The notes beneath the pieces are model-generated. The model made no database searches, was not told the origin of the DNA, and was given only the letters and a program-made list of their open reading frames with translations. DNA of 64,000 bases, taken from positions 9,817,001-9,881,000 of the forward strand of contig NC_083387.1 of the NCBI RefSeq assembly GCF_031755915.1, in the 5' to 3' direction. This DNA comes from Ziziphus jujuba. Lineage: Eukaryota; Streptophyta; Magnoliopsida; Rosales; Rhamnaceae. Positions 16,802-48,304 of the stretch are shown one piece after another. Every line of letters starts with the position of its first letter. Position 1 is the first letter of the stretch. The translations under genes were made by a program, and so were the position numbers.

Positions 16802-16969
16802 TTATTGGTAAGTGGAAACACTTTTGGCAGCACCTTCTTCGTTAGCCTTAGAGTTTTGGTCACCATTTTGGTTCTCGCGGTATATGGGAATCGAAGATGA
16901 GGGAATCCAAGATGATGGATCGACAGACTCTCCATTTCGGTTCCCACGGTATATGGGAATCCAAGACTA
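16802..16969 (-). pseudogene. 3' extension of the precursor frame behind a single TAG
   Basis: The frame stops at TAG (16969-16967) where a parallel repeat has TTG (Pro-Leu-Ser-Trp), and then stays open for 54 more codons to TAA at 16804-16802. The extension carries two further cores, WIPIY and SSIPIY, with the 18-residue spacing kept for the first, then a hydrophilic tail ending EEGAAKSVSTYQ. One T-to-A change therefore explains the stop. The present product should be shorter than the ancestral one, or the stop may be read through, or it may be an assembly error. Confidence 0.75.
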
Positions 16970-17590
16970 TGGATTGACAGAGTGTCCATTTTGGTTACCA
17001 CAATATATGGGAATCCAAGACAATGGATAGGCAAAAAGGCCATATTGTTTTCCATTGTATATAGGGATAATGGATGACGGATTTACAAAAAGGCCATTTT
17101 TATTTCCGTGGTATAAGGGAATAATGGACAATGGGTTAACAAATTGGCCATTTTGGTTTCCATGATATATAGGGATAATGGATGATGGATCTACAGAAAG
17201 GCCATTTTTGTTTTGGTGGTATATGGGGATTATGGATGATAAATCTACTAAAAGGCTATTTTTGTTTCCGTCGTAGATGGGAATAATGGACGATGGGTCA
17301 ATAGATTGGCCATTTTGTATTCCATGGTATATGGGGATAATGGATGATGGATCTACTAAAATGCCCTTTTTTTGGTGGTATATGAGAATAATGGACGATG
17401 GATCACTAGATTGGCCATTTTGGTTCCCATGGTATATGGGAATAATGGATGATGGATCTACAGAAACGTCATTTTTGTTTCCATGGTATATGAGGATAAT
17501 GGACGATGGGTCAACAGATTGATCTTTGGCTACATCCTTCCCATTTTGGTTTCCATGGTATATAGGAATAATTGATGACGGATCAACAGA
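16880..17590 (-). repeat. 54-bp tandem repeat array encoding cyclopeptide cores
   Basis: Thirteen units of about 54 bp, one per core peptide, visible on the plus strand as repeated ATGGGGATAATGGATGATGG-like words. Two units are longer (24 and 23 codons between Tyr residues). Codons differ between units while the Pro-Ser-Ser, core and His-Gly-Asn-Gln-Asn-Gly amino acids persist, which indicates selection on the protein rather than very recent duplication. Confidence 0.85.
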
Positions 17591-17854
17591 AAGATCTTTG
17601 GCTACTTGCTCCAAGACAGTCTTCACATATTCAATAGGCTCTTTCCTTGCTATGACGATGCTTGACAATTGCAATAAAATATATAAGAGTAATGATCAAA
17701 GTAAACAAATCATTAATCTTTTTTCTCAATAAAATCAAAAGCATAATGTATCTGCACAAATCATATGTTTCCCACTTTATCATGCTATTTTCAAGGAATT
17801 TGATTTGTAGCACAAGAGAAATGCTTACCAGAATAAGTAATATGAGAAGGCCAT
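16967..17854 (-). CDS. secreted repeat precursor of Tyr-terminated cyclopeptides (probable split-burpitide precursor)
   Basis: Two exons. Exon 1 (17854-17829) starts in good context (TTCATGGCC) and ends at donor TCTG|GTAAGC; exon 2 begins at 17660 after GTCAAG. The 168-nt intron splits a Cys codon. The product of about 239 residues starts MAFSYYLFCIVIA, a short hydrophobic signal with likely cleavage after Ala13, then a charged leader (RKEPIEYVKTVLEQVAKDL). Eleven repeats follow with the consensus SVDPSS-IIPIY-HGNQNGQ. The Tyr residues lie at 43, 67, 85, 103, 120, 138, 156, 174, 192, 210 and 228, so the period is almost exactly 18 residues. Cores: IIPIY seven times, IILIY twice, IIPLY once, WIPIY once. 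Precursors of this type (signal, leader, multiple identical cores) feed BURP-domain peptide cyclases, which form a Tyr-ether macrocycle in the secretory pathway. The intact BURP gene about 23 kb away supports this. The gene model is by eye; the function is inferred. Confidence 0.75.
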
Positions 17855-17939
17855 GAAGAGAGGCAAATATGTATTTTCATCATTAATATCAACTTAAGAA
17901 AAACATCTATTAATCCTTTCCAAGTTGACTGGTATACTA

Positions 17940-17946
17940 ATTTATA
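17940..17946 (-). promoter_or_regulatory. probable TATA box of the precursor gene
   Basis: On the minus strand GATATAAATT lies about 86 bp before the ATG at 17854, a normal distance for a plant TATA box with a 5' leader of about 55 nt. This is position and motif only. Confidence 0.45.
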
Positions 17947-20099
17947 TCATGAAAATTTGTTTGTAGCCAGATCACATAGTACCATCAGAAAAAAGGGTTT
18001 AGTAACAAATTTTGGAGCTTTTAGTGATAAATATGTTTTCTTAGCCTAAAATCTTAGATAGAGACAAAAACATTTTTTTTGGTAACTTTATATATTCAAA
18101 TACATAACATGTATAAACAATCATAAGTGTTTACCAAAGAATAACATTTTGACTTGGCAAGTTGTAAAAGAAATGTTATTAATTACTTAAAATTAAAACT
18201 TAGTTGGGAATATTTTGTCATGTCATTATATTTTTCATTATAAATTAGAAGATATCATTCTAAAAAATCAAATCTATATTAACAATATAAATATGCTTAC
18301 CTATAAACTTTTTTGAAATAAAATTTGATAAAAATTAAAGGAGAATTACATAAAAAAAAATTCATTTCCTTTTTTTATAAATATTTTAAGAAGAACAAAA
18401 TTAAATGGAAACATACTTATAAAACTATCTATTTTTTATATTTCGAATCCACAGTTTATCAATTGAAACCAATTTACTTGAGAAATAAACTGTATATTTG
18501 AATGCTACTTGTTAATTTCATCAAATTTAAGGGGAAAAAACAATTGGAAGAATGACCAAATTGACACTTTCCCATGTGGGTGAATAATGAATTTTCAATT
18601 AATAATATTGGACTGGAGACAACCCAATCCGGACAGAGGTATCGCGTGCAGGATATGCTCACACTGACGGTTTCATATTTTGGAATAAATGGAACGTGAC
18701 TTTCACCATGCCAATTCCAGTGTGTCGCTCGGAAATCTATTGCCCTAAAAAAAATTAATTTTACAAAAATAAAATAAAGATAAAAGACTTTATGCCTTTG
18801 GGCACTCAAATCAAATCCCATGAATTTAAAATATATTTTAAGATTAAACATTCGCCATTTTCCTTTTCTTTCATATTCATATTAGTTTAAATATTAGAAA
18901 ACTTTTTTGAACTTCTTCTTTTTTTCTTTTTTTTTTCTTTTTTTATTATTTTTTCTCAGAAAATAATAACCACATATCTTTATCTTTTTGAATAGGATTG
19001 TTTCTTTGTTTTTCTTCATCCTTGTTTTTGTTTTCGCTTTCAGTTTTACTTGCCGATTGTGAAATCAATGGTTATTATTAATCATTTTATCGATAAAAAT
19101 TTAAAAAAAAAATAAATTTAATTTAATCATGTGTTGAAATATAGTTGAAATGTTTAAAAAATAAAAAAAAAAGGGACAAATTCAATAAAGCTCACACCTC
19201 CAGCATTTTGAGCAACCAAAGTGGCAATCAAATTAATTAGGAAGGAATTGAAAGCATTAGTTACTCCCAATTCACACCTCAATTGAAGTCAGCTAAAGTA
19301 TCGGTCACTTTGTTACATTTTCAGAAAAGTGATGCAAATCAAAATTTAACTTGAAATAAATAAATTCACGCACCATTAAAATAAGCTATAAAATTGATGA
19401 ATAGAAACCCCATTTTGCATAGAATCAACCACAGGAATCTATCTCAAAAAGACCATGAAATAGAACACCGACTATACTTCTTCATGAATTGAAATATCAA
19501 AAACCAAAACATATAACTCTTCATTTTAAAAAGTGTATTTTTCAAATTTAAGAATATCTTTAAAGATAAAAGTGAAATTTTATTAGATCTTTTAGCAAGA
19601 CTCTTTATTATTCTTTTTTATTTTAATGTAATCTATAAGCATAACTATACCATGAAATAAAGCAACAAACATATTTAAATTCCCACTAAGTGGAAGAGAA
19701 AATTTCATATAAAAAGTATCTTATTTTCTTTTCTATTTGAGTTTTTTTTTTTTTATATTCTTATTTTGAGAGTTTGAGAAATTGTGAGATGGAGAAAGTG
19801 AAACATTTATAATATCTCTAATAGTAAATGTGGATTACTATTTGTGGAACATAAAAATTGACACCATCAAAAATTTAGGTAACATGAATGTAGATTAAAT
19901 TATAAAATTATTTTCTAATGATAATATACAGAATGCTATTTATGGCTGTTAATTAATTATATATATTTCATCAATTTTTTTTTTCAAAAATTAACTTTTA
20001 AACAAAATTTTACAATATTTGATAGTCCTTCAAAAAGTAGAGGATCACTTTGACAATAATTTTTTTTTTCCTTACCACATCAGTTTGATAGTTGCTTAT
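17947..20099. other. AT-rich intergenic region and upstream flank of the precursor gene
   Basis: No supported gene. The 125-codon minus frame at 18474-18851 has no recognisable domain and low-complexity AT codons. Poly-T/poly-A tracts lie near 18900-18950. Regulatory elements of the precursor may be in the first few hundred bases. Confidence 0.55.
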
Positions 20100-21190
20100 T
20101 TTTTCAATGTGACAAAAAAAAAATTTAATAATAAACAGAATTTTTGAAGATGCTCTCATCATGAGATTGAATATGTGATGGACTTTGGTTTTTATACTAA
20201 CCCTTCTAAAATCCAATATAATCTATTATTTTATAAAATCCTTCTAAATCAATGATTTTTCATATATCATCAAATCTTATTAAAAAATCGTATTGAGTAT
20301 TTATAAAGTCTCTATAATCTAAATTAAATATATTTAGAATTTTGTGGATTCCATACAATTATAAATTAAATATTCTTTTAAAAGTGTTACAAGTTGAGGA
20401 AAAAAATATTAATGTATTAATTAAAATATGAACATTTTCATAATTTGTAACTAATTAATACTTTAATTGTTTTCAGGCAAAAAATTATCACTAAAAGATA
20501 TACCAAATTACCAAATAAAAGTATGAATTAAAATAACTATATCCATTAACATAATGAGATTGGTCCAGTGGTCACCACCGCTTTTTTTATAATTAGAACA
20601 TGTTGGTATTTAAAATAGTATTCCAAACATAATATTATGAAACCCTCACAGACTTCCACCTAAAAAATGATAAAGTGAATCCTTACAGACAAATAAACAA
20701 AAACTAACATAGAACTCACTTAATTTTTTTCATTTTGCTTTGATATGATCGAATTATTATTTTATTTTATCATAACTGTTATCTTTTTGAATAAATAAAC
20801 GCGCTTAATTGTTTGACATATCACCAATAATTTTTCCTCAATCATTACCAGAAGACAAATAATTCTGTTGTCTTCCTTTAACTGCTATTTATTTTATGTC
20901 AACATTTCCCAATTTTTATTTAATAAATCAAAACTTCCAAAATTGTAAATTATAAAAAAAAAAAAAAGGGACCCCTCCATATGTACATGTATGGTAAATT
21001 TCACATTATCGTGTCTTCTAAATTTATATCCTGAGATCTTAAAAACAGGTCTAGGACCCACAAAAGATTGTCTTTTCGTGCATGCGGCACCACAGAGGAA
21101 TTAAATGATTCACCAAAAACGACAAAAAAACTAAGGATGGCACCAGCTAATTTTTCTCTTTTTTTTGGCTAATATAATATTAAAGTATTT
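20100..21190 (+). repeat. 1-kb dispersed segment A, copy 1
   Basis: Aligns by eye over about 1 kb with 39500-40600: the ATGAGATTGAATATG start, 'CATAATGAGATTGGTCCAGTGGTCAC', the 'GACTTCCACCTA' block, 'TTTAACTGCTATTTATT' and 'CAAAAGATTGTCTTTTCG'. The other copy replaces the end of the BURP pseudogene. The last 60 bp also match 28507-28570. No coding capacity. Confidence 0.75.
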
Positions 21191-24100
21191 TTTATTCACC
21201 AAACACAACAAAAAACTAAAGATCGCACCATCTTACCACTTTTTAAAGAAAATTTAATTTCAATGCTTAAAAAAAATCATTACAAATTCATATAAAAGTA
21301 TTTTTTATTTTGTTAAAAACTAAATAAAAGTAAATTGCAAACTAGAAAAAAGAATGATAAAAATAATTGACCATTAAAAAATAATCATTATACATTGATA
21401 TGAATAATATGTAAATGGAATTTTTATACATTGATCGAGATTTACCGTTGATCGAAAGAGTCAAAATTTTAATTTTTTATTTTGGATGGAATTTTACATT
21501 GATCGAGATATCATTTCAAAGTAAGTATCGTTCCGAGTTCGTAAACCAGTAGCATATCGAAATCGGAGTTACCGTTTAAAAATTATGCGCAAGGTAAATT
21601 GCGGTCCAAGCTATCCAAAGGTACCAAATTTGACTTTTTATTTATATAGAATTTCGATTTAACTCTTGTATGGTTGTAAAGTACTCGTCGGTATAAGTCT
21701 ATAGACTAGCGGCACGCTCGATTTGAACATGTGGCTTGAAAGTTACGAACCTGCAAAGTTTTCTAAATACCGTGATATTTTAATATATTTTAACTTGAGT
21801 GAACAGTGTATGCCATGTGTCGTGTTCTCAACCAATCCCGTGTGTGAACAGTGTCACCCAGGGTGACTTTTATTTTGGCCAAAACACATGTGGGCCGGGG
21901 GGGAAGAGAGAGAAAGAGGAGAGAAGAGACCACCACCACCGGTAACCGCCGTCTGGTCATTTCCACCTACATGCGCCACCCCATCTTGACACCCAACTGA
22001 AAACCGATCGGCCAACCGACCGCCGACTCGCTCAGATCAAGATTTTTTCCGGCGGCGGCACCGATTGCTTCCAACCCAGATTTCTTCCTGATCCAGCCTC
22101 CGTTTGCCTCACCACCGGTCCCATCCGTTCACCCATCCTCCAATTTACATCTCCTCCAAAAATCACGACCAGTGGCCACCTAAAGCGCTGCTGGCTTATC
22201 GGGAAATCTACTTTCCGGCGAGTTCCCAATTGCACCGTCCATCCTTTCCCACTAGTTTCACCCCCCGAACCCAGATCTGAGGTTGATTTCCTCCAACTCG
22301 CGGTGGTTTGTGAGATCCGAGGATCCAAAACCCGATACTTTTCCGACGAGTTTCCGGTCACCTCAGGTTCGATCTCTGGAAAATGAGACCTGATTCGTAA
22401 TCCTTGTTTCACAAGCTTCGATTCGGTATATCACTCGTAAATTTTGGTTGTCATTTGTGTTCGCTCCCCGAGTACCCATTTGAGAGTTATCCGATTAAAA
22501 TATTAAAATAATTAGTTTTGTGTATTGTGGATATTTTAAGTGCACGTATGGGTAGTGGAGTTAATCCTGCAGAGGATCTCGATTGATACACGTGCTTAAG
22601 GTGAGTGACCCACCTTTAAAACTATTTTGGGGTGATTAATTATATTTATTTTGTCTTAATTTAATATTTAGAAAATATGCTCATGTGGTGGAATTTATTT
22701 ATAACTGTGGTAAATTGTATTATCAATTTTGATAATTTCTATATATATATATATATATACTTATTAATGCTAAATTAAAGTTTGGTTTATTAAGAAATTC
22801 TTGATTATTATTATTATTGTGATTTAATTGAATTTATTACACATGAGTAAGGTGTTTTCATTTAATTAATTGTACTTGGATTTTAATATTATTTTTGGGC
22901 ATGATTCGATTTTAAATATTTCAAAACAATATTGGTTTAAGTTTGGTGCTTTCAAATTATATAATTATGCCTTGAAATATTATTTGATTATTTTATGATT
23001 TGAGAAAAGTTATTTGTATGTTATTATTGATGGTTTTACGCGGGAGATATTAAAGAAAAAAATATGGGATTGTGAATTTGAAAAATACTATGATTCCCAC
23101 GGTGAGTTTTGAAAAAATTATTATTTTTTAAAAAATAATATGGTTATTTGTTTTAAATGCACTCATATAGTACTAGTGTTCTGTACTGTGTATGTAGATG
23201 ACCGCGCAAGTTATAATGTCTCCTGTGAGTTGCCATCGGACAGAGGGTAGGCAAGTTTGATATTGGCCATAAGCTGCCCCCCTCCATGGCCGAGTTGACG
23301 GGTTAAGCAGCGGCTATGTAGGAACGCCGAAGCGACCATATGCAAGTTTCTCTCTTTAATCTCCCGTCGGACGGTGCTCAGGACGCTGGATATCGTAGGG
23401 CATCACTGGTATATAGTGTGGTGCGTCAAGTATTATTTTTCTGATATAAATTTTAAATTCTAAAGTTTTAAAATCGTATTTAAATTAAATGTATTTAATT
23501 TGTTTTATCACCTATTTCCAATTAGTATTTTTCTAAAAGGTATTTATTCACATTTTATGTAACTTATTTTAAAACAATGTTTTTAAAATGCATCTTGCCA
23601 TAAAAATATTATATAGATTGGTTGAATATTTCAAAATAAATATTATAATATTTTTACCACTTACTGTACATGATTGTTTGTAATTATTTTAATTATGTTT
23701 TTGACACTGTTTATTTTGATTTATTAAATCAAATTTTACGAATTATATATTAAATTTCACTTTTATGTTATATTTCTTTAATGCAATTATTCTAAATTTA
23801 TTTTATTATATTTTATTCGTATTTGGATTATTTAAATTTTTATCAAATTAATTATTCCTTGATTTTTGAGCATAAAAGATTGGATTTTGTGAAAATGTTT
23901 TAAAAGGGGAACCTTTACAACGGAGTGAATGGTGAGGATTTTGAGAGAAAATATTATTTCCAATTAATTATTATTTATTTATTCTTAATTATTCAAGTGT
24001 ACTATGACTATTGTTGCTATTATAATTGTATATTAGATAGGGTCACTTACTGAGATGATTAGTATCTCATATTTTTAAATTTGTTCCCCTAGGTACAAGG

Positions 24101-25690
24101 ATTGGTAGACGTTCGTCCAGAGCGAGCTTGATCTTCGTTGCTGTCGTATTTCGAGGAGTTCTCTTTCTTTTCATTTATTTCTATTGTAATATTTCTTTCC
24201 ATCTTTTGTTGTATAACTTCCATACTTAATTGTACCCTATGATGCTCTGTATACTGTATTGGATATATTTCATTAAATACTGCATTAGTTCCCTGTTTAA
24301 TTTATAGAAGCGTTGTTTATTGTGTAATTAAATTGTAGTAAGATGAAGGAATAAGGCGGTATATATATAGAAGTGTGTTTTCAGTACAGGGAATTTGTGG
24401 TAAGTCCAACCCTTAGGGAAGGTTCTGCCGGATTTTCTGTCAGAAAGTCCAGTAGGATTTTTCTGGGATCAGAGCTTGTCTAGGGTTCCAGTGAAAAATA
24501 TTGGATGGATCCTAACAATATATCAATTGAACCTATCTTAGAAATCATATATAATTTATATGTGTATATGTACGTTGGTCCAGGTTGGTCCTTTGAGAAA
24601 AAGCAAAAACGATATCGACATTAGAAATAGCCTTAAACATGTCACCTTTAAGATGGATAATTCTATCATAAAGATACGAACCCCAAATTAAAAGTTCAGC
24701 AAGGGCATTATCATATAGTGAATAGCCACCAATGTTTTTATTTTTATTTTTATATGATTAAAGAAATGATTTTTGTTTGAACTATTTTTAGTACTTTGGA
24801 AAACAATGTAAATTCATAAAATATTCCTATTCATTTCAATATACTTCTCCTAAGTATCTCAAAATTTAAAATTTCAGTTCAAAATTCATACATGATATTA
24901 TATAGTTATAAATTGAAATTTATTGTAATAATTTTTTTAAAAAAATAAAAGCAGTTGACATTACAATATATTCATTACAAATTATAAAAACAAATGCAAA
25001 AAGTAAGGTTTTTGTTAGAATTTGATTAATCCATGAAAACTAACAAAAAATTAAAAAATTAAAAATAAAAAAATAAAAAATAAAAAAGGTAAAAAAGAAA
25101 AAAATGATGGTTTTTGAAAAAAAAATCTCCAAACGGGAGAAGAGCCGACGCTTTTAGAGAAAAACATCGGTTGTTGTATATGTTTTCAATGACGCTTTTT
25201 TAAAAAAGTATCACTAAAAACGTTTGTAATAGCCGGTGCTTTTCTGTAAAAGTGTTGGCTTTTCTCTCTTTTGGAGATAGTCTTTCATAAAACAGTCCGG
25301 ATTTCTTTGTTTTTATTTTTAATTTTTTTTTATTTTTTTGGGTAGTTTTCGCTATCACTTTGATTAATCAAATTCTAACAAGAACCTTACTTATTTTTTT
25401 GCGTTTGTTTTTATAATTTTTAATGAATTTATTGTAATGTCAACTACTTTTTTTTAAAAAAAAATTATTACAATAAATTTTAATTTATAACTATATAATA
25501 TCGTGTATGAAATTTGAATTGAAATTTTAAATTTTGAGCTATTTAGGAGAAGCATATTGACATGAATTTAAATATTTTATTAATTTACATTGTATTCAAA
25601 AGTACTAAAAATAGTTCAAACAAAATAAAAAAATACTCTTATATGAATTTGTAATTATTTTTTTAAAGGAATTTCTAGTTGCACTACCAT
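21191..25690. mobile_element. foldback (long inverted repeat) element, copy 1, interrupted by a solo LTR
   Basis: The left arm (21225-21409, resuming at 24518-25080) and the right arm (about 25290-25660) are inverted copies of each other, with a hairpin-rich centre at 25100-25290. The arms share the words CTCCTAAGTATCTCAAAATTTAAAATTTCAG and the complement. The left arm is split by the solo LTR 21410-24517. Alignment with the uninterrupted relative at 28638-30131 shows the pre-insertion arrangement. No transposase frame. Confidence 0.7.
21410..24517 (+). repeat. Ty3/gypsy solo LTR (3.1 kb)
   Basis: A single LTR from TGTAAATGG (21410; the first bases of the family terminus have diverged) to GGATCCTAACA (24517). 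No primer-binding site or internal region follows; host sequence resumes with AACCTATCTTAGAAATC, as in the empty site at 28970-28990. Flanking words (TAATA / ATATA) are compatible with a decayed 5-bp target duplication. The 126-codon minus frame at 22032-22412 is antisense LTR noise. Confidence 0.8.
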
Positions 25691-25699
25691 TTGGACTCT

Positions 25700-28506
25700 A
25701 TACAATTCCATTATTAATTTATATTTTTATCATCATTTAAAATTATTATTAAAAACATTTGTTAACTAGATCTATTTAAATAATTTATTTATACAGTCTC
25801 ATTCTTTCTCTCAAATAATGAATATAATAATTTAGAATGCACATAAATACAAATATTAATTTAGAACTCAATATATACATTGAAAAAATTTTAAAAATCC
25901 AATAATTAAATTTAGAATAAACATCACTAGATAAAATAAATAAAATCATAAATAAACTTGTATTAAAGAAATTTGGCATAAAACAAAAATAAACTCTGCA
26001 TATAAATTATAAAATTTATTGTTTAAATCAATGAAATAATCAAGGAAACATTTTAATAGATTTTAAATTTATATTTAAAATAGATAAACGAATACAATAA
26101 AATTCATGTTAAAATCTCAAAATTTAAATAAATAATATCAACATGGTAAAATAAAATTATAAAACACCAATTTAAAGTAATTAATAAAAACATGAATAAA
26201 TACATTTTAGAAAATACTAATTGTAAATAGGTGATAAAACAAGTTAAATATATTTAATTCAAATACGACTTTAAAACTTTAGGATTTAAAATTTATATCT
26301 GAAAAATAATACTTGACGCAACACACTATATACCAGTGATATCCTATGATACTTAGCGTCCCGAGCACCATATGGCGGGAGGTTAAAGAGAAAAACTTGC
26401 ATACGGTCGCTTCGGCATCCCGACAGCGCCACTGCTTAAATCGTCAACCTAGCCATGGAGGGGGGCGGCTTATGGTCAATATCAAACTTGTCTGTCCTCG
26501 GTCTAATGGCAACTCACGTGAGACATTATAACTTGCGCGCCCATCCACATACACAGTATAGAACACCAGTACTGTATGAGTACGTCTAAAACAAATAACC
26601 ATATTATTTTCAAAATAATAATTTTTTCCAAAACTCACCGTGGGAATCATACAAATTTTCAAATTCACATTCCCACATTTTTCTTTAATATCACTAGCAT
26701 AAATCCATCGATATAAATTCCATCAATTTCAAATCCATCAATGAAATCAACAATAATTTAAAATAAATATTCCTTCAATTTCTCAAATTTCAAAAGATAA
26801 TTAAATCACACGATAAACATAACAATTATAAAAAGAAATTGAAATCACAATTTCTTTTAATTTCCAAATATATTTTTGGCACCCAAACATATATTAAAAC
26901 AACATACATTGGCAATATAATTTAGATGGAAATTCTCTTAATATCAAATACATAAAACATATTTTTCAAATATCTAATTATAAAATATTCCAACAACAAA
27001 ATTTAATAATTATTAAATTAAACTTCAAATTTAAGAAAATCTTTAAAACCCAAAATTATTTATAATACACAAATAATTTAACTTCCTTTAATTTGGCATA
27101 AAATTTCAATTGGAAATTTACTAAACAATTAACACATGGAATAAAATTTCCAAATATATAATCAACACAAAGTATATACAATTTACCAACCCAAAATAAT
27201 TTTGAAGGTGGGTCACTCATCCTAAGCACGTGTATCAATCAAGATCCTTTGCAGGATCAACTCCACTACCCACACGTGCACCTAAAATACCCACAATACA
27301 CAAAACTAATTATTTTAATATTTTAATCTGGTAACTCCCAAATGGGTACCCGGGGAGCGAACACAAACGACAACCAAAATTTACGAGTAATATACCGAAT
27401 CGAAGCTTGTGAAACGAGGATTACGAATCTAGTCTTACTTTCTGGAGATCGGACCCATGGTGGCCAAAATCTTGTCGGAAAACTCTCGAATTTTAGGCCT
27501 TTGATTCTCATAATCCGTTAAGAATTGAGGAAAGTGGACACCGGATTTGGGTTCAGGGGGTCTGAATTAGTGGAAAAGGATGGGCAGTGCAATTGGAAAC
27601 TCGTCGGAAAGTCGATTTCCCGATGAGCTGCTGAGATCACCGGAACCTGTCACGGCCGGCGGCGCGTCCGATGGGCACTCTTCATGATTTTTGGTGGGAA
27701 GGTAGATCGGGGAATGGGTGACTCAAGGGGATTAGCGGTGAGGCAAACGGAGGCCGGATCAGGGAGAAATCTGGGTTTGAAGTAATCGGTGCGGCCGCAG
27801 GAAAAACCTTAGATCCGGGTGCGTCAGTGATCGGTTGGCCTTGATTTTTGGCTTGCAGGCCGATTTTCAGGTGGGCATTAGGGTGGAGTGGCGTGTGTAG
27901 GTTGAAAACGACCAGACGACGGTCAACGGTGGTGGTGGTCTCTCCTCTCTCTCTCTCTCTCTCTCTTTCTCCTTGCCTCTTTCTTTCTTTTCCCCCCCGG
28001 CCCACATGTGTTTTGGCCGAAATAAAAGCCACCCGTGGGTGATACTGTTCACTCATGGGATTGGTTTAAAACACGACATGTGGCACATACTGTTCACTCA
28101 AGTCAAAATATATTAAAATATCATGGTATTTGGAAAACTTTGTATGTCCATAACTTTCAAGCCACATGTACAAATCGAGCGTACCGCTAGTCTATGAACT
28201 CGTATCAAAGAATACTTCACAACCATGCATGAGTCAAAGCTCAATTTTGCACGAACAAAAAGTCAATTCCAACACCCTTTGGACAGTTTGGACCTCAACT
28301 TGTCTTGCTCGTAACTTTCAAACGGTAACTCCGTTTTTGATGTGCTACTAGTTTACGAACTCGGGATGATACATACTTTGAAATGATGCCTCGGTCAACA
28401 CAAAATTCCACCCGAAACAAAAGGTCAAAATCTTGACCCTCTTGGTCAATGGTCAACATCGGTCAACGTGCAAAAATTCCGACATACTTTGGGACAGGGT
28501 GTTACA
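25700..28506 (-). repeat. Ty3/gypsy LTR, minus strand, 3'-truncated
   Basis: From 28506 on the minus strand it starts TGTAACACCCTGTCCC and follows the family through the GGTGGGTCACTCA block (27209-27222) and the 'CTTTAACCTCCCGCCATATGG' block near 26370, then fades at about 25700 before the 3' terminus. No internal region adjoins its 5' end. Frames such as 27682-28056 are LTR readings, not genes. Confidence 0.75.
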
Positions 28507-30339: not shown

Positions 30340-30620
30340 CATAAACTCTGACGGTCCTTCATTTTTTTTTTTTTTTTTTTGGTTGTTTTCAATAAATTGT
30401 GACTCTTCTTTTTTGGTTAATAAATTTTGACTGGCCTTTTTTTTCTTATTTTGGTAAGTAACTAAGGTCTATGTTTTTTCTTTTTTTCTTTTTTTTTCTT
30501 TTTTTGTCAATAAATTGTGTCTGTCCTTTTTTCTTCTGTCTTTGGTGCATAAATTGTGTTAATAAATTTTGACTGTCCTTTCTTTCTTGTTTTGTGACTA
30601 AATTGTGACTGTACTTATAT
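30340..30620 (+). repeat. imperfect minisatellite
   Basis: Five or six degenerate repeats of the type AATAAATTGTGACTGTCC followed by a pyrimidine tract (near 30350, 30390, 30420, 30500, 30560 and 30600). T-rich and non-coding. Confidence 0.65.
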
Positions 30621-30787
30621 AAATATCCGCCTCCTGCCTAATTTGGGTATGCGAAATTTGAGTATTTTCTCTTAATATTTAAATCATAAATATGTTCGCT
30701 ATGCACGTAAATACGATAATATGTGGTACAAATGTCCCTGCATAATGCATGTTAATATTTTGTTCAATTTACTTTTGATCCGACATT

Positions 30788-32180: not shown

Positions 32181-32699
32181 TTTAGGAAGAGGATTCACAT
32201 GGCTCCATATGTACGTATGAGGTAGATTGCGACCCCTCCGTATGTACGTATAAGGTAGATTTCTCTTTTTATCTTGCTATTAAATTTATAAATATATATT
32301 AGTTTTAAATCTATTAAATTGACATCACTACGCGAAAATTGATATCTAGCGACGCTATGAAACAAACGCGTCTGAAAAAATAAAACCACAACTCTAAGGT
32401 TAACGCGTCAGTAAAAATTCAATAAATATACGACGCATCCCAAAACCGTGGATATCAAACGGTTACTAAAAATAACAACACGCGACACATCCGTTAAGAG
32501 TCGCTGAATATGCAGCTGAATAGAGTCGCCTTTAATCCTATGCATATATTTTGTCTGAATTGTATTGTTTAAATGCTAGACTCATGAAAAATGATTAACC
32601 ATCCACTTATCTATGTTTACATAATAGCAAAATTTAATTATACGAGGTTATTGTTCAATTATATAATTTTTCATGTACAGTTTATTCTTGCAAATCTCT

Positions 32700-34350
32700 T
32701 AAATAATATTCTTTTTTTTCTTTAAGATATTAGTAACAAGCGACGCACAAAAATCATTACGAGTCGCTTGTTCCCCTTTTATTTTTTATTTTTTAAATCA
32801 ACCTGATTTTCTTTAAAACTTTAAATAACCAGTGAAAATATTTAAGTAACATAACTGAACTGAATTTTTTTTTTTTTTTTAAATATAGGTAACAGGCGAC
32901 CCACAGTCTTCTTTATGTGTCGCCTGTTCTCTCTTTTTTTTTTGGGGGGTTCTTTTAATCAATCTAATGTTATTTCAACTTCAAATAACCAGTGAAAATA
33001 TTAAAGCAACATAATTGAGCTGGTTTTTTTTTTTTTTTTTAAGATATTGGTAACGGGCTATACACAAGCTTCATTGTGCATTGCCTATTTTCTTTTTTCT
33101 TTTTAATCAATTTAATTTTATTTCAACTTCAAATAATCAGTGAAAATATTTGAACAACATAACTGAGCTGATTTTTTTTTTTCCTTAAATATAGGTAACA
33201 GGCAACCCATAATCTTCTTTATGCGTTGCCTGTTCTCTTTTTTTTTTTTTTTTTATTCTTTTAATCAATCTAATTTTATTTCAAATACAAATAACTAGTG
33301 AAAATATTATAGCAACATAACTGAGTTTTTTTTTTTTTTTTTTTAAGTTTTGGTAACAAGCGACGCACAATGAGGTTATGTTGCTATAATATTTTCACTG
33401 GTTATTTGTAGTTGAAATAAAATTAGATTGACTAAAATAAGCAAAAAAAAAAAAAAAAAAAAAGAGAACATGCAACGCATGATGATGCCTATGCATCGAC
33501 TGTTACCAATATCTTAAAAAAAAAAAAAAAAAACCAACTCAGTTATGGTGCTCTAATATTTTCACTGGTTATTTGTAGTTGACATAAAATTAGATTAATT
33601 AAAAGAACAAAAAAAAGAAGAAGAAAGAAACAGGCGACGTATAATGAAGTCTATGCATCGCCTCTTACCAATATCATAAATATTGGTAACCAAAAAAAAA
33701 AAAAAAAAAACCAGCTTAGTTATATTGCTTAAATATTTTCACTGATTATTTGAAGTTAAAATAAAATTAAATTGATTAAAAAAAAAAAAAGATAACAAGC
33801 GACACGTAGTGATATTTGTGCATCGCCTGTTACCAATATCTTTAAAAAAAAAAAAAAATCAGCTCTTTTATGTTGCTAAAATATTTTCACTGTTTGTTTG
33901 AAGTTGAAAGAAAATCAGATTAATTAAAACAAAAAAAATATATATGAGAACAGGCAACGTGTAATGAAGGGTCTACATCGCTTGTTCATTTTATCTTAAA
34001 AAAATCAGCTCAAGTGTATTGCTTACATATTTTTACTGGTTATTTGAAGTTGAAAGAAACCAGATGGATTTTAAAAGTAAAAAATAAAATGCAACAGGCG
34101 ACGCATAACGAAGCGTCTACATTGCCTGTTCATATGATAAAAAAAATAATAATAAATAAAAGAAAAAATACCAGCTTAGTTTTGTTGTTTAAATATTTTC
34201 ACTAGTTATTTGAAGTTGTAAGAAAATCAGATTGATTAAAAAAAAAAAAAAAAAAAGGTACAGCCAACTCGAAATGAAACCGATGCATCACCTGTTTCCT
34301 TTAGAATTGGTCGCCTTAAATTATCTGGCAACCCATGTATCATTTAATGC
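32700..34350. repeat. CACTA left subterminal array with internal inversion
   Basis: Units of about 150-200 bp contain a poly-T or poly-A run, a GGTAACAGGCGAC...CGCCTGTT stem and the sentence AATAACCAGTGAAAATATT. Left of about 33360 the units read in one direction (poly-T, AACCAGTGAAAATATT). Right of it they read in the opposite direction (AATATTTTCACTGGTTATT, poly-A), so the array forms a large imperfect palindrome. Each unit also has its own hairpin. Confidence 0.75.
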
Positions 34351-35560
34351 GTCGCTTGTTATTTCAAAATAAAAAAAGAAAATTTAATCTATTATAAATT
34401 TTAAATTCAAATAAACTATCATTGATACCCAAAAACCTGAAAGTTCATCTCGTTGAACATACTTATGTTGAACAATTGGACTATAAGTCCTTGTTGCATT
34501 AGATCAATTTACAATTGGTATACCCTATCTCAAATTAGGTCGGGAGAGATGTGTTGTTGTGTTTCGTGTATACACATATACGTAAATAATTGAAAAGAGC
34601 ATTGATAAAGCTGTTTCCTATTTTTAGATCAATGGAATTGATGTTCATTGGAATGCTAGGTGAAAATATTTGTACATAAAATTTCAAAAAACTAATTAAA
34701 GCTTAAAAATAAATTTTAAATACTAGGGTATAAGGCGACTCTTTTAAATGCAATTGCATCACCTGTTTTTAAAATTTTGGAGATATAACAGGAACATTTA
34801 TGAGAGTTGCATATTTTGAAAACAAATGCAAATTTTAAACTCAAATAAAGTGCAAAATCCTATTTAAAGGGTGAACAAACATAAATAAAAGAACAGGCGA
34901 CATTATTTGAAGACAACGCATTATTGTTTCCTTTAGTTTGTTAAAAAAAAAAATACAATTTAAAAGACCTGCAAGTTTAAACAGAAAATAAACCGTAGTT
35001 TGAAATTTTTTTTTAAAGAATTAAAAAAAAAGAAATAGACGACTCTAAAAATGTTATTACGTCGCTTAATCCGTTGTCACGTCTAACATTTAGTGACACA
35101 GTTTATTTAAAAGGGTCTCTTGTTTTGCCATTTTCTTAAAATTATTGGTGCGTATTAAACTTTTACGAGGGCCTTTGAATACCATTTCTTTTCACAAAAT
35201 AGATGTTAGTACACTATCTAATAGATCTTAAAATTGGAAGCAATCTCAAAGAGACTTGAAGAGTGGGATATTTTGGGTTTAAGTTTCGATTTGCCTGCAT
35301 TGCTTTCTGGAAGCTTGATTTTTTTTTTTTTGTCACCTTCATGGTTAGCTTGGCTTTTTCTTTCTTTGTCTCCATAGTTTCGATGAGTTTCTTTTTTCTT
35401 TATGATTGGCAGTGACATGTGGTGGGTTGAGTTATTTTTTTTTAATTTTTTTTTTTCATTATAACCGAATGTTAGGTTCGCTGAGTTTTCTTAATCTTGC
35501 TTTTGTCGAGGTTCGCTGGGTTTTCTTAATCTTGCTTTTGTCGATAATTTGTTTGTGATA

Positions 35561-36090
35561 TTGTTTGACATTGTTCTGCTTAGATTGGTAGGGAAGTGGA
35601 TAACAAAAGATAGAACCTCAAACGATTTTGCTAAGGGGGTGAATGAATTTTTGAAATTTAGTATGGAGAATGCCAATGATTGTAATGCCATACGGTGTCC
35701 TTTCATGCGATGTGGGAATACGAAAATCCATACTATTAGGGGTATTAAAGTCCATATATATTGGAATGAGTTTGATGTCAACTATCGGCAATGGACTTGG
35801 CATGGTGAGTCATGTGCTGACAGTATGTTTATGAGATGGGGTTTACATGTGTTAATTTTAATAAAATTGGATATAAATCTGATCCATTCATCATGACTTC
35901 ACAAGTTCAACAAATATTTTATGTTGAAGATCAACTTGATTCGAGATGGTCTGTTGTTTTAATTCTACCACAACATTGTACTTTTGTTGAAGAATAATTG
36001 GTTGAAGAAGATGTTCTTGGTGATACTATGATGGCTCACAATCCATTTACCATACAATTGCCAAGTGTTGATGAAAATGATAATTAGGAT
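35561..36090 (+). pseudogene. CACTA transposase remnant (transposase-associated domain and C-terminal DUF4216-like piece)
   Basis: The frame from 35549 contains WITKDRTSNDFAKGVNEFL, then CPFMRCGNTKIHT and WTWHGES, the pattern of the N-terminal transposase-associated domain of plant En/Spm elements (zinc-binding Cys pattern, WxxHGE end). From about 35895 another frame reads QIFYVEDQLDSRWSVVL, typical of the C-terminal DUF4216 region, followed by acidic residues and stops. The central catalytic part (TNP2-type) is missing, so the element is non-autonomous. Confidence 0.75.
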
Positions 36091-36739
36091 GAATGTAAAA
36101 GTAGCTATATTCGTAATGACTGTGAGGGAATATGGATAAACAATATCTTCTAAATAAATCAGTACGTATGTCAATTAACTTATGTTTTAAGTAATATTTA
36201 TGACATTTATTATTATTCATTAAATTATTTTTTTGATCCATTTCATTATGTGTTTTCCACTTTTAATTAGGAGAAATGTGCTTCGTCAAATCTTAAGAAG
36301 GTAATATTCTACTAAATTATAAATTTAATAATGATTAATATTTTATTTATTTTGCATAAGTGTTAATAACTTTTTTAATTTTTCCATATGCAGTATGAGG
36401 GTATAATATCGTCAACAAGAGGACGTCAACTTCCATCTTAATGAGTAGGCATCCATCGAAGTTTAATTAATATTAAATTTGTTATGAAAAAATACAAAAG
36501 TTTATAAATTATGTAAAAGTATGTCAATGAGATAATATTTAATTTATTTGATAATTAATTTGTTATGCAAAAAAATTTATTTTAAATTTTTGTATTCTAA
36601 TTATTTTGGATGGAGCTAGTTTTAGTTTTTTTGTATTTTAATTATTTTTATATTTTTACTATTTTAATCACTTTTCACAAAATTAAAAAATATATAAAAT
36701 TAAAAGAAAAAAAATAGAAAAAGCGAAGCATTAATACAT

Positions 36740-37200
36740 AACAAAGTCGCCTAACATATTTGGCGACCTTTAATTTGCTATTTTTAGCGATTCATATATT
36801 TAGTGATGCTTTAAAAAAAATTGCTAATACATTTTTAGTGACAGTGTGGTAAAGCGTCGTTAAATAATGCATCGTTATAAGTAGATTGTTAGCATGCATC
36901 GCTAAAAACTCAATGATAGGCGACTCTTCTAGTGTGTCGCTAAAAACTCAAAGATAGATGACTCTTATGATACATCGCTAAAAATGCAAAGATAGACGAC
37001 TCTTATGGTGCGTCGCTAAAAATCTATCTGAGTCGCTAAAAACTCAAATCTAGGTGACTCTTATGATGCGTCGCTGAAAATTAATCTGAGTCGCTAAAAA
37101 CTCAAAAATAGGTGACTCTCATGATACATCGCTTATTGTTTTATGGCTTTAGCGATATGACGTTAAGCGATTCCGTGCGATACATCGTTATTTATTTTGT
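36740..37200. repeat. CACTA right subterminal array
   Basis: Seven or more short repeats of GTCGCTAAAAACTCAAA(G)ATAG and GGCGACTCTT/TGACTCTTATG alternate up to the right terminus. These are likely transposase-binding repeats, by analogy with En/Spm subterminal motifs. Confidence 0.75.
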
Positions 37201-37244
37201 GCGATGCATTTATTGCGTCATTTATCAATGCGATTCTAGTAGTG

Positions 37245-37877
37245 CATATAATATATTATATTAAGATTTATAGTTATCATCTTTCTTTCTTTTTTCTTTT
37301 TTTGGAAAATAGAAATTATCACATTGTCTACAATAGTGTAATTAATTTTTTCTTTTCTAATAAAGAGAGTACTAACTTGGTAAAAGTTATAGAGAATCCC
37401 ACATGTGAGTGGGGTGTCCTATAAACCATTTTTTTTTTTTTTTTTTAAGTTCAAAGCCTTACAAAATTTGAATTTTAGGTAACTACTGAAAATGATAACT
37501 TGGCAAAACTGAACAACTTAGTTATTATATTTATGGATTTAAGAGTTATGGTTTAAACCTTTAACAAGTTCTATTATTTTTTTTTTGATGATCTTATATC
37601 GCTATGTTGCATAATCAAATCTTTAATTAATACTATCAGTATATATCTTTAATATACTAACAAAAAAGTAATTGTAGATAAAATTATAATAATAAATAAA
37701 TAAAATGAAAATGAATTTACTAATGTTGAACATTGTTTTAAACAATTATATTATATTTTCCTTAATTTAGCAAATTCACATTTTGCAAGCAAATTAGCAA
37801 TGTTAATTAATCTTCAAAGCTGTTATATATATATATATATATATAAATATGGTAAATTTTACTTTAATCCTCTCTAT

Positions 37878-37908
<31 letters not shown>

Positions 37909-38480
37909 TTTCCAAAAATACATCTATGTTTTAAGAGATATATATGTTGTGAAAAACAATTGATTACTTAGTAAATAAATAAAGTTATATATGTTATTTG
38001 TAAATATGTTTGTTTGTATTATTAAGAGAAATTTTTTTTTTTTTTTGTAATAAAAAAGAGTAAAGGTTTAAGAAATGTCACTTCCAGTAAAATGGATAAG
38101 TTAACCAATAATTGACTAAGTGGGTTACTAGAGTGAAACAAAATAAAATCCAGTAGAGGCTATAGTAAAAATTTTCAAAATAAAACCCGATATTTATATA
38201 TGTAATTTATCTCATGAAGGCAGAATTATTATTACATATATGTATACTAGAAAAATGCTCATTCATTTAGTAAACTATTTTGACATCTTATATCAGAGGA
38301 TGTAAATGAGGTAAATCAAGTTGAGTATTGACATTTTCAAACTCAGTTAGCATGATTTTAAGAGTATTTATGCTCAACTTGTCTTGTTCATGAAAAATTC
38401 AAAATTAGATCTGCTCAAATTGTTACATTATAAAACTTTTAAAACTTAAAAATATTTATTTTCTTAAAATATTTTAACAT
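37245..38480 (+). repeat. 1.3-kb tandem duplication, copy 2 (right part)
   Basis: Continuation of copy 2 after the CACTA insertion, aligning with 30830-32180 (landmarks in copy 1). It includes AT runs at 37828-37850 and 37885-37910. No gene. Confidence 0.7.
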
Positions 38481-39105
38481 TAGTAGATAATAAATTTCAA
38501 TTATTCAATTAATTTTATTATAAAATTAATTTAGTTTTTAAAAAGTTTATAAATTTAAAATATAAAATATATCGTTTATTGATTATAAATACTCAATGTA
38601 TTTAAATTTATAATGTAATTTTCACATAATGCATATAAATAATAATTTTGAGTTGCTCAATGAGCTTAATTTATTACTTAAAATTGACTTACAAGCTTCA
38701 TTTTTTGTTCAAGTTCGGTTTGTTTTTTTTATGAGTCAAGATTTGAACAAGCTAAAGTCAAATTGAGCTTGAGCGAATCACAAGCTGCTCGAGCTTATTT
38801 ATAACCTTATATTATAGTAATATCAATATTTTATTAATATATCCCATTAATATATATATATATATATATTGGTATAGATTTAATTTAAAATAACCTTTCA
38901 CTTCAAATAAATAATATTTAAAAAAAAGGAAAGAAAAAAAAAAGAAGAGAGAGAGGGGAGAATAATATTTGACAATAGGCCCTTCTTTAAAAGTCCAATT
39001 TTTCTTATATATCCTCTTTGGCTCACTCCCTTATCTTGAGGAAAAAAAAAAAAAAAAAAAACAACACAAAGAGAAAGTGTGAGGATGGCGAAGAAAATTA
39101 GAAAA
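38481..39105. other. non-coding; last part is the promoter region of the BURP pseudogene
   Basis: AT-rich. From about 38890 it matches 40685-40840, the upstream flank of the intact BURP gene, including a TTATATATCCTCTTT box (39005-39020). The minus frame at 38898-39143 is antisense. Confidence 0.65.
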
Positions 39106-39499
39106 ATGGCAAAGAGATTTGCTTCTTGTGTTCTTCTCATCATGTACCTTTTTTTGTTGATGCTAATAATTTAAATTTCATTTTTATTAATATTTTCTTT
39201 TGAATAATTAGTATATATATATATATATATATTAAGATCTAATCACTTTAAAATATTTTCCATGTTGAATTAATTCAATTATGCAGTTGTGCAGTACTGG
39301 AAATGGCCACCCCCAGCACCACCACCACTATAGGACGGCGGTGATGATCATCTAGATGGGGCTAGAAGAGTAGGATTCTTCACTGTGTATGATCTCTATG
39401 TGGGAAAAGCAATGGGCATTCAGTTTTACACCAGAGACCCTTCTTCTTTACCTCAGTTTTTGTCCAAAGAAGCTGCCGATCGCATTCCATTTTCAGTAA
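39106..39499 (+). pseudogene. truncated BURP-domain gene copy
   Basis: A tandem copy of the BURP gene 1.7 kb downstream. Exon 1 (39106-39162, MAKRFASCVLLIMYLFLLM) is nearly identical, but the donor GT after ATG is changed to CT (39163). The acceptor at 39283-39286 (GCAG) is kept. Exon 2 loses one base near 39331, which brings a TAG into frame. The body (DLYVGKAMGIQFYTRDPSS, then SKEAADRIPFSV) matches up to about 39499, where homology ends abruptly and segment A begins. The region with all four CH pairs is absent, so it cannot be a cyclase. Confidence 0.9.
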
Positions 39500-40600
39500 C
39501 AATAGACAAAGTTATTGAAAATGTTTTTACCATGAGACTGAATATACGATGGCCTTTATGTTTAATACTAACATTTCTAAAATCTAATTTAGTGTATCAT
39601 TTTATAAAATATTTATAAATTAATAATTTTTTAAATACCGTTAAATCTTGGTAATTTATTAAAAATACTAATTGAACACTTATAAAGATTATATAATCTA
39701 AAGTAAATAGATATAAAGTTTTATAGATTTCATACAAATATAAATTGAATATTTTTATATTTTAAAACTTTTTTAAAAGTGTACAAATTAAGGAAAAGGT
39801 ATTAATGTATTAATCAAAATATGCACATTTTTCCTAATTTGTAACTAATTAAAACTTTAACTGTTTTGAGGCAAAAAATTATCACTGAAATATATCAAAA
39901 TTACCAAATAAAAATATGAATTAAAATAACTTATATCCATTAACATAATGAGATTGGTCTAGTGATCACGATCGCTCCTTTTAAATTATAATATGTTGGT
40001 ATCTAAAAACATAATCTTATGGGGACCCTCACAGACTGTCACCTAGAAAACGATAAAGGGGATCCTGACAGACAAATAAACAAAACACATGGCACTCACT
40101 AACTTTTTATATTTTGCTACGACATGATTGAAGTATTATTTTATTTTTTTGTTATTGTTATCTTTTTGAATAAATAGACGTGCTTAAATGTTTGACATGT
40201 CATCGATAAGTTTCCCTCAATCATTACTACAAGACAAGACAATCCTGTTGTTTTCCTTTAACTGCTATTTATTGGATGTTTACATTTCTCAATTTTTATA
40301 TAATAAATTAAAACTTCCAAAATTGCAAATAAGAAAAAAGGTCCCCTCCATGTGTACATATATGGTAAGTTTTACTTTTGCTGTGTCTTCTGAATTTATA
40401 TCCTGAAATCTTGGGATTCCAATCACGACCCCTCGTTCTAAAAACAGGACAGACAAAAGATTGTGTTTTCGGTGCAAATGGCACTGTAGGGGAACTTAAT
40501 GCTTCACCAAACACAACAAAAGATTGTGTTTAACTTTTCTCTTTTTTGGGCTAGTATAAGATTAAGAATTTTTTTTCATGTTTTGTCAATAAACAATGTT
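39500..40600 (+). repeat. 1-kb dispersed segment A, copy 2
   Basis: Matches 20100-21190 (see that entry) and directly replaces the rest of the BURP pseudogene's exon 2. Non-coding; the frame at 40188-40406 is not a recognisable protein. Confidence 0.75.
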
Positions 40601-40763
40601 GGGCCTAAAATATGAGATAAGCTCCGTTTACGAATTAATTCGAGTGAGCTAAAATTAAGCCGATAAGAGCTGCTGGAATCTTTCACTTTAAATAAATAAA
40701 CTTAAAAAAAAAAGAGGGGAAAAATACTTGACAACAGCCCTTCTCTAAAAGTCTAATTTTTCT

Positions 40764-40770
40764 TATATAT
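40764..40770 (+). promoter_or_regulatory. probable TATA box of the BURP gene
   Basis: CTTATATATCC lies about 75 bp before the ATG at 40842 and is conserved at the same place before the pseudogene (39006-39012). Confidence 0.5.
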
Positions 40771-40841
40771 CCTCTTTCACACACTCCCTTATTTAGAAAA
40801 ACCAGAGAGAAAGTGTGAGGACGGCGAAGAAAATTAGAAAA

Positions 40842-41814
40842 ATGGCAAAGGGATTTGCTTCTTGTGTTCTTCTCATCATGTACCTTTCCTTGTTGATGGT
40901 AATAATTTAGATTTCATTTTAACTAATATTTTCTTTTGAATATAATTAGTATATAGGTGTGTGTGTGCATATATATATATATATATTTTTTTTTTTTTCT
41001 TTTTTTCTTTTAAGATCTAATCAATTTACGATATTTTCCATGTTGAATTAATTCGATTATGCAGTTATGCAGTACTGGAAATGGTCATCCCCAGCACCAC
41101 CACCACCAGCAGGACGGCGGTGATGATCCTCTGTATATGGCTAGAAGAGTAGGATTCTTCACTGTGGATGATCTCTACGTGGGAAAAGCAGTGGGCATTC
41201 AGTTTTACACCAGAGACCCTTCTTCTTTACCTCCGTTTCTGTCCAAAGAAGTTGCGGATCGCATTCCATTTTCAGTAAAAGAACTTCCGCTTATTCTTCA
41301 ACTCTTTGGGATGGCTCCAGGATCTCCAGAGGCCCAGTTAGCTGAGAGGACCCTGAGAACCTGCTCAGAGGAACCCATAAAGGGGGAGCAAAAGACTTGT
41401 GCAACTTCCGTAGAATCCTTCATCGAATTCGCGAGCTCTATGTTAGGCGGAGGACAATACGGGGTCGATTTCAGAGCTATAAAAACTACCCATTTGGGAA
41501 AACCAGTCAGCGTTTATCAGAACTACACTTTTCTCGACATCAAAGAGGTGCATAGCCCGATAATGGTGGCCTGCCATGTTATGGACTACCCTTATATAGT
41601 ATATATGTGCCACAGCCAAACCAGTAGGGTGTACCAGATCAAGATCGTTGGTCAAGAGGTCGGAGATGCACTTAATGCTATTGCGGTTTGTCACATTGAT
41701 ACATCTCAATGGGCACCCGATCACGTTTCTTTCAAACTCCTCGGCGTCAAGCCTGGAACAGTTTCGATTTGCCATTTCTTCGGCCCTCATAACCCTGTTT
41801 GGGTTAAAAATTAA
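40842..41814 (+). CDS. secreted BURP-domain protein, probable peptide cyclase
   Basis: Two exons: 40842-40898 and 41065-41814, with a 166-nt GT-AG intron in phase 0. The 268-residue product has a hydrophobic signal peptide (MAKGFASCVLLIMYLSLLML), a short His-rich linker (residues 27-35, HPQHHHHQQ), and a complete BURP domain from FF at 50-51. Family hallmarks seen: TLRTC...KTCATSVESF (conserved Cys pair) and four Cys-His pairs at 189/190, 201/202, 228/229 and 255/256 with spacings X10, X25, X25. The end is GPHNPVWVKN. BURP cyclases bind copper through these His/Cys residues and oxidatively cross-link a Tyr or Trp side chain of a peptide in the secretory pathway. Self-modifying BURP proteins carry cores before or in the domain. 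This one has no such region, so it should act on a separate substrate, for which the repeat precursor at 16967-17854 is the obvious candidate. A structural, non-enzymatic BURP role (RD22/USP-like) remains possible. Confidence 0.88.
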
Positions 41815-46374: not shown

Positions 46375-46416
<42 letters not shown>

Positions 46417-48303: not shown

Positions 48304-48304
48304 G

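Follow-up and report, generated by a model that had tools for sequence, protein, structure and literature searches.

Burpitides, and their split arrangement in which precursor and BURP-domain cyclase are encoded by separate genes, have already been described (PMC11253845, PMC11250218, PMC12871766, PMC12186524). As reported in a January 2026 preprint presenting the first full pathway of a classical cyclopeptide alkaloid, ZjuBURP and the linked ZjuPrec-FPIY on chromosome 9 of Ziziphus jujuba 'Dongzao' lead to lotusine A (PMC12871766). The predicted cores of ZjuPrec-FPIY comprise 11 FPIY and 3 FLIY; a version with 5 cores, proven in Nicotiana benthamiana, gave cyFPIY with ZjuBURP through a bond from the Tyr oxygen to the Pro β-carbon; ZjuDC and ZjuNMT, encoded on other chromosomes, complete lotusine A, and ZjuBURP also acts on a FIPFY precursor encoded on chromosome 4 (PMC12871766). 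Similarly, CamB1 of Ceanothus americanus cyclizes CamA1 (...KDFSVDPSGN-ILLY-HG) and CamA2 (...KDISVDPSGN-ILWY-HG) peptides in vitro (PMC12186524). In this study, we analyzed a 64,000-nt stretch of Z. jujuba (contig NC_083387.1, positions 9,817,001–9,881,000; hereafter the window), which contains a tandem-repeat precursor array and, ~23 kb away in divergent orientation, a stand-alone BURP gene. The first-pass annotation of this DNA had assigned it to the split cyclopeptide-alkaloid burpitide loci of Rhamnaceae, and this class is well supported by the cyclase, by a CamA-like first repeat unit, and by the ZjuBURP/ZjuPrec-FPIY pair. Within this class, we consider it reasonably probable that the local precursor is impaired and that the cyclase, whose gene is intact, now serves precursors elsewhere.

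The BURP protein consists of a signal peptide, a ~30-residue His-containing linker, and a BURP domain, which matches Pfam BURP (PF03181) with E=1.6e-66 and 224 bits against a cut-off of 27. As found by regular expression, residues 189–256 carry four CH pairs in the canonical spacing CHx10CHx25CHx25CH, in agreement with the definition of a burpitide cyclase as a BURP domain (PF03181) with CHX10CHX25-27CHX25-26CH. Furthermore, the model of the protein shows the fold of the solved copper cyclase of peanut (8sy2/8sy3), the four CH pairs align with those of 8sy2, and the first CH has Pro at H+5. Between the signal peptide and the BURP domain, reading by eye revealed no core-like motif and no Tyr- or Trp-ended repeat. 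Regular expression, Pfam, and reading by eye all agree with the earlier description of a stand-alone BURP protein with four CH pairs and without a core of its own.

Over its full length, the BURP protein shares 95% identity with a Z. jujuba protein (P0001) named 'BURP domain protein USPL1', and none of the 14 differences lies inside a CH pair. It is 47–48% identical to proteins named BNM2A-like, and ZjuBURP belongs to the BNM2-like BURP subfamily. Its length of 268 aa equals that of ZjBNM3-5, and one jujube assembly has six BNM-named BURP genes within ~0.5 Mb, three of which encode 268 aa (PMC9541082); the window may lie in the matching cluster. The identity to BNM2A-like proteins and the shared length hint only indirectly at membership of the BNM2-like subfamily. 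The BURP protein is a putative burpitide cyclase that would perform ZjuBURP-type chemistry. Another relative, FEM48_Zijuj09G0108000 (P0002) of Z. jujuba var. spinosa, is 85% identical (92% covered). In P0002, which lies outside the window, FH replaces the first CH pair and the gene model has no signal exon; it is perhaps another decaying BURP copy.

A dead cyclase duplicate, also recognized in the first-pass annotation, was confirmed at 38952–39499, with 82% DNA identity to 40713–41278. Its exon 1 is kept at 39106–39162; the donor GT is changed to CT, and exon 2 has a 1-nt deletion. The similarity stops upstream of all CH pairs, where a dispersed 1.1-kb repeat starts. The two copies of this repeat (39497–40578 and 20126–21198) are 77% identical, and the former abuts the break point of the duplicate.

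The precursor array lies on the minus strand and is built of 54-nt, 18-residue units; in Tandem Repeats Finder, a period of 54 scored 481 and one of 162 scored 570. The frame from 17668 begins with LSSIVIARKEPIEYVKTVLEQVAKD, followed by units that are mostly 18 residues long, and the pattern [IW][PL][IL]Y identified 13 units, all hydrophobic and Tyr-ended. The 18-residue repeat precursor of the first-pass annotation is recovered in this array, but an in-frame TAG at 16967–16969 ends the open reading frame (ORF) after 11 units. The precursor boundary at 16802 had been reached by reading through this TAG; 16802 belongs to a TAA two units beyond. The set of pentapeptides is Tyr-ended throughout but mixed, with 7 IIPIY, 2 IILIY, 1 IIPLY, and 1 WIPIY ahead of the stop and WIPIY and SIPIY after it. 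The TAG sits at the Ser(-3) column, where the remaining 12 units have TCA (7), TCG (3), or TTG (2). Across all 13 units, Tyr, Ile(0), and Ser(-2) are invariant, the two positions between Ile(0) and Tyr are Pro in 11 and Leu in 2, and Ile in 12 and Leu in 1, Pro(-4) is kept in 12, and Ile(-1) in 10, with Trp in 2 and Ser in 1. At the pocket position, the 11 units ahead of the stop have Leu in 5, Gln in 4, Val in 1, and Ile in 1, and the charged KD flank is kept only in units 1 and 2. Thirteen units, C-terminal Tyr cores, and a recognition segment resembling that of CamA characterize the array as a multi-core precursor.

To describe constraint, pairwise ratios of nonsynonymous to synonymous differences (pN/pS) were calculated for units 1–11. 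The 4-residue core had a ratio of 0.10 and the 5-residue core one of 0.18. DPSS stood at 0.23, the tail at 0.38, and the whole recognition part at 0.51; taken over all 18 codons, the ratio was 0.39. These values are descriptive because repeat pairs are non-independent and sequence might be exchanged among repeats; moreover, the units were chosen by their core pattern, so that in the core only pattern-free variation and synonymous changes are informative. Judged from these codons, the array appears to have long been under selection for an I-[P/L]-[I/L]-Y core.

No second array was found within the window by tblastn. A homologue of the exon-2 protein up to the stop was absent at E≤0.001 among 8000 candidates scored, as was one of the N-terminal region 1–66 at E≤10 among 75 candidates. 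In jujube, the precursor may lack a protein annotation, as hinted by the abbreviation 'ncRNA' in the legend of Fig. 2 (PMC12871766). The array ORF, with or without the signal-like N-terminus, showed no match to PF10950 (DUF2775, organ-specific ST/SST) at a maximum E of 10, in a search in which the HMMER filters discard most matches above 0.1; DUF6832 gave a sub-threshold match (E=0.0027).

To find the start of the precursor, combinations of ATG, GT, and AG were enumerated with A or G in the third donor position, introns of at least 70 nt, and stop-free joins. GTAAGC at 17828 is the sole donor among the four strong forms searched. The ATGs at 17883 and 17880 open the frame MMKIHICLSSWPSHITYS, which differs from the frame of the third ATG at 17854. 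A signal-like frame, KYIFASLHGLLILLIL, stands directly after an ATG but one base out of frame. It would join LSSIVIA-RKEP in phase 0 if TTGCAA (17669–17674) ended in an acceptor AG, but AA stands at that place. In favor of KYIFASLHGLLILLIL as a possible former signal are its position and phase, together with the BURP gene's own phase-0 intron, which lies at the same point.

One rescue route leads from ATG 17854, with an exon 1 of 26 nt, to an AAG acceptor ending at 17661 and yields MAFSYYLFC joined to IVIA-RKEP. The resulting 13-residue N-terminus has a mean hydrophobicity of 2.17 over 10 residues and 2.85 over 8; over the same lengths, the BURP signal peptide reaches 2.75 and 2.90. This 168-nt-intron route was evidently the choice of the first-pass annotation, which had given both genes the same layout; the place of the intron is indeed shared, but the signal exon of the precursor is unclean (26 nt, third ATG). 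The other routes are as follows. With an AAG ending at 17646, ATG 17854 gives MAFSYYLFW in frame. With a TAG acceptor ending at 17650, ATG 17883 or 17880 gives MMKIHICLSSWPSHITYSAR, which is non-hydrophobic (best 10-residue mean 1.04). The weaker donor GTGCTA at 17813 gives a lengthened form of the same non-signal-like N-terminus, and GTGATC at 17975 gives N-termini of one to six residues. Collectively, the precursor has an in-frame TAG, no canonical route of start, signal, and splicing, and one short hydrophobic rescue route.

SST genes (PF10950), which have been discussed as possible cyclopeptide precursors, typically have first exons of 45–60 bp and introns mostly of 70–200 bp, and 85.6% of the mature proteins have an R start and a YW pair (PMC11991032). 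The disturbed KYIFASLHGLLILLIL reading would fit this layout in exon length (51–54 nt) and in the R after the signal, whereas the 26-nt exon 1 of the rescue route would not. Because PF10950 does not match the array, this likeness is an analogy only.

Because of the premature TAG, the disturbed start and signal frame, and the lost in-phase acceptor, the precursor is probably impaired, and its function in this genome copy seems doubtful. Therefore, the cyclase most likely serves other precursors in trans, or a shortened 11-core version survives weakly expressed. The earlier claim that Ile-Ile-(3-oxyPro)-Ile-styrylamine cyclopeptides are made here is not established in view of the premature stop, the disturbed start, signal, and splicing, a core that may be IPIY, Gln at the pocket position in 4 of 11 units, and the lack of a decarboxylase or N-methyltransferase domain among the ORFs scanned. 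As inferred from characterized relatives, the BURP protein would bind copper through four His residues and dock the recognition segment of each repeat. It would close 14-membered rings by oxidatively joining the phenol oxygen of Tyr to the β-carbon of Pro, or sometimes Leu, two positions earlier. The cores would next be released by proteases, with decarboxylation and N-methylation left to unlinked enzymes. The local Ile-type precursor would formerly have supplied substrates, and the cyclase would persist for precursors elsewhere, as ZjuBURP does.

No 2-oxoglutarate decarboxylase or N-methyltransferase Pfam family was found among the 10 + 98 window ORFs scanned, which are part of the 187 ORFs of at least 62 aa that passed the complexity filter. 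Absence here would say little because ZjuDC and ZjuNMT lie on other jujube chromosomes.

Several observations weigh against an impaired precursor. The constraint on the 4-residue core is undiminished toward the end of the array (pN/pS 0.10 in units 9–13), while the value for the 5-residue core rises there to 0.47 through Trp and Ser at the extra position; with the 4-residue constraint holding evenly from one end of the array to the other, decay, if any, is recent. The spliced product MAFSYYLFCIVIA-R is in frame and has a short hydrophobic N-terminus with Ala at -1, followed by 11 units before the stop. Of 200000 random 16-codon pieces drawn from this AT-rich window, 74241 were open, and 2168 of these (~3%) held a stretch as hydrophobic as KYIFASLHGLLILLIL. 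Moreover, the expected exon 1 and acceptor were deduced from phase and by reference to where the BURP intron lies rather than from an intact relative, and SST proteins begin with R and carry a YW pair, whereas this precursor has the R but YV as the pair.

These points bear most directly on a fully working cassette, in which ATG 17854, the 168-nt intron, the 13-residue signal, and 11 cores up to the TAG would yield (I)IPIY and (I)ILIY alkaloids with the linked BURP protein. The in-frame splice through the GTAAGC donor, the hydrophobic N-terminus with the means given above, and 11 complete units under strong core constraint beside a linked intact cyclase all agree with it. However, it relies on a 26-nt first exon and a signal without a charged n-region, where SST genes (not of the same Pfam family) have 45–60 bp, on skipping two upstream ATGs in another frame, and on an AAG acceptor, and the TAG interrupts the array. 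In addition, Gln occupies the pocket position, at which Phe to Ala abolished ArbB2 activity, in 4 of 11 units. Consequently, we regard a working cassette as rather unlikely. An assembly error might instead lie behind the lesions, namely one base in an A run and two substitutions, and the real gene would then be canonical and intact. One lesion does lie inside a short A run, and the uniform 4-residue core constraint agrees with this view, but three separate, unlike differences in one gene, with none in the BURP gene 23 kb away, make it improbable. Finally, the BURP gene might encode a non-cyclase BURP protein that lies near the array by chance. The linkage is indeed loose, across 23 kb of repeat-rich DNA, the closest named relative is annotated only as 'BURP domain protein USPL1', and six BNM-named BURP genes are clustered in jujube. 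Against this stand the four retained CH pairs, a jujube BURP protein that is 95% identical, the ZjuBURP-precursor linkage in jujube, and the same arrangement at the coffee arb locus, which leave chance proximity very improbable.

A further reading, somewhat less likely than not, is that a Ziziphus lineage carries an Ile-type core set (IPIY/ILIY/IPLY, preceded by Ile or Trp) at a lotusine-type locus. This locus would then either yield Ile-headed 14-membered alkaloids that have yet to be described or be the trace of a recent chemotype loss in which a trans-acting cyclase was kept. The string 'IIPIY' was not found in the literature searched, which did not include the 2023 paper first listing jujube precursors, and 'IPIY' as a whole word gave only matches that are unrelated as judged by title; the core set is possibly unreported. 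The calculated [M+H]+ is 485.312 for N,N-dimethyl-decarboxy-cyIPIY and 598.396 for the IIPIY form, compared with 503.2864 for cyIPIY and 616.3705 for cyIIPIY, and the same arithmetic gave 537.2708 for cyFPIY, published as 537.271 (PMC12871766). The alkaloids of Z. mauritiana include amphibine D and E with an m/z 344 fragment (PMC12299143), which, by our reading, fits a Pro-Ile-styrylamine ring; '485.31' and '598.39' are absent from the main text of that paper. We also considered amphibine E as a product of WIPIY. Its calculated mass agrees (671.3915), but m/z 114 fits, as we read it, an N,N-dimethyl-Ile terminus and not Trp (PMC12299143), and this assignment was dropped.

A specialist would be only modestly surprised, as both the chemistry of the enzyme and the gene arrangement were known before. 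The window extends the known class by a Ziziphus locus whose core set is its own, and it supplies concrete masses for a search. Should the precursor prove broken, the locus would be a natural case in which a split system for ribosomally synthesized and post-translationally modified peptides has lost the local substrate but kept an intact cyclase, in line with ZjuBURP serving an unlinked precursor. It would then record chemotype turnover in action and warn against taking genome co-localization as proof of product.

The coordinates of the features are collected in the table.

Table. Features of the precursor-cyclase locus (window coordinates)
Feature	Coordinates	Strand	Basis
BURP-domain gene, stand-alone, intact, presumed split burpitide cyclase, 268 aa	40842–41814	+	
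BURP gene exon 1, signal peptide MAKGFASCVLLIMYLSLLM, 57 nt	40842–40898	+	
BURP gene intron, 166 nt, GT...AG	40899–41064	+	
BURP gene exon 2	41065–41814	+	
Dead BURP duplicate, comprising promoter-side sequence, exon 1, and the beginning of exon 2	38952–39499	+	alignment, translation
Precursor exon-1 region, donor GTAAGC at 17828	17829–17883	-	
Precursor intron keeping frame with hydrophobic N-terminus, 168 nt, acceptor AAG	17661–17828	-	
Precursor exon-2 open frame: LSSIVIA-RKEPIEYVKTVLEQVAKD leader, then 11 repeat units	16970–17668	-	
In-frame TAG stop inside repeat unit 12	16967–16969	-	
Post-stop continuation: units WIPIY and SIPIY, tail ...KANEEGAAKSVSTYQ, ends with TAA at 16802–16804	16802–16966	-	

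The window is AT-rich (31.8% GC), with many repeats and transposon fragments, and Rfam gave no match in it at gathering thresholds. The Pfam scans of 10 + 98 ORFs returned transposon domains, BURP, two sub-cut-off matches (DUF6832 in the array and DGKI in a reverse-transcriptase ORF), and one MARVEL match, which was not recovered on rescan of 10 ORFs. Beside the precursor, an ORF at 15383–15913 (-) without a Pfam match contains the stretch GKDVRQFQGLHCEHYKLLEKAGYVASPTVYRAIYLPSNEFVVVKCLDPDRCDSNL, which we take to resemble the start of a plant STE20/OSR1-like kinase; it looks like a gene fragment. A 280-bp repeat just downstream of the BURP gene (41874–42155) recurs at 56653–56932 with 76% identity, and 32709–34303 is dense in tandem and inverted repeats with units of ~146–167 bp. 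A 3.1-kb direct duplication (45256–48306 and 49225–52281) is 90% identical, and no gene was identified in it. Ty1/copia-type fragments at 58448–60376 and 63410–64000 (-) match RVT_2, integrase, and SH3_retrovirus in several separate open frames. Further fragments are a retroelement piece at 2759–3139 (+; Integrase_H2C2, 9.5e-08), a DNA-transposon piece at 35495–35893 (+; transposase-associated domain PF13963, 4.8e-17), and an ORF at 7257–7841 (-) that reads by eye like a retroelement piece and has no Pfam match.

Compared with known systems, this locus is similar to ZjuBURP/ZjuPrec in its stand-alone BURP gene linked to a repeat precursor with -[P/L]IY cores, and, like the FPIY/FLIY cores of ZjuPrec, its units vary between Pro and Leu at the cross-linked position; unlike ZjuPrec, it has (I)IPIY/(I)ILIY/(I)IPLY/WIPIY cores, a stop, and start and splice defects (PMC12871766). 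The coffee arb locus has the same precursor-cyclase arrangement, and its truncated BURP copy without CH motifs (ArbB1) is a counterpart of the dead duplicate (PMC12186524). ArbB2/ArbA2 of Coffea arabica (arabipeptin A) is also a split pair, with a Ser shortly ahead of the core as here, whereas ArbA2 has an FLWGY core, forms a 17-membered ring, and comes from another plant family (PMC12186524). In contrast, AhyBURP of peanut (8sy2/8sy3) is fused, autocatalytic, and USP-type, with 30–32% identity to the BURP protein by structural alignment.

In the pocket, His237/Pro242 of ArbB2 resemble the arrangement here, where Pro stands at H+5 of the first CH (PMC12186524). The pocket residue is Phe in ArbA2 and CamA1 and Ile in CamA2, and changing Phe to Ala abolishes ArbB2 activity (PMC12186524). 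In this array, 7 of the 11 units ahead of the stop have Leu, Val, or Ile there and the other 4 have Gln, and the distance from the pocket residue to Tyr is 11 residues both here and in ArbA2, as counted by hand on the printed sequences (PMC12186524). The Cam recognition segment is KD-[F/I]-SVDPS, compared with KD only in units 1 and 2 here, and the Cam cores are ILLY, ILWY, and FFFY (PMC12186524). Unit 1 (DLSVDPSSI-IPIY-HG) aligns ungapped with CamA1 (DFSVDPSGN-ILLY-HG), and, read as KDLSVDPSSI-IPIY-HG, it has the same K-to-Y length as CamA1 and CamA2 (PMC12186524). This equal length therefore favors a 4-residue IPIY core, and the I/W/S variation at the extra position leans the same way. Collectively, these comparisons suggest that the core may be IPIY rather than IIPIY, while jujube itself offers a precedent for a 5-residue core in FIPFY of jubanine K (PMC12871766).

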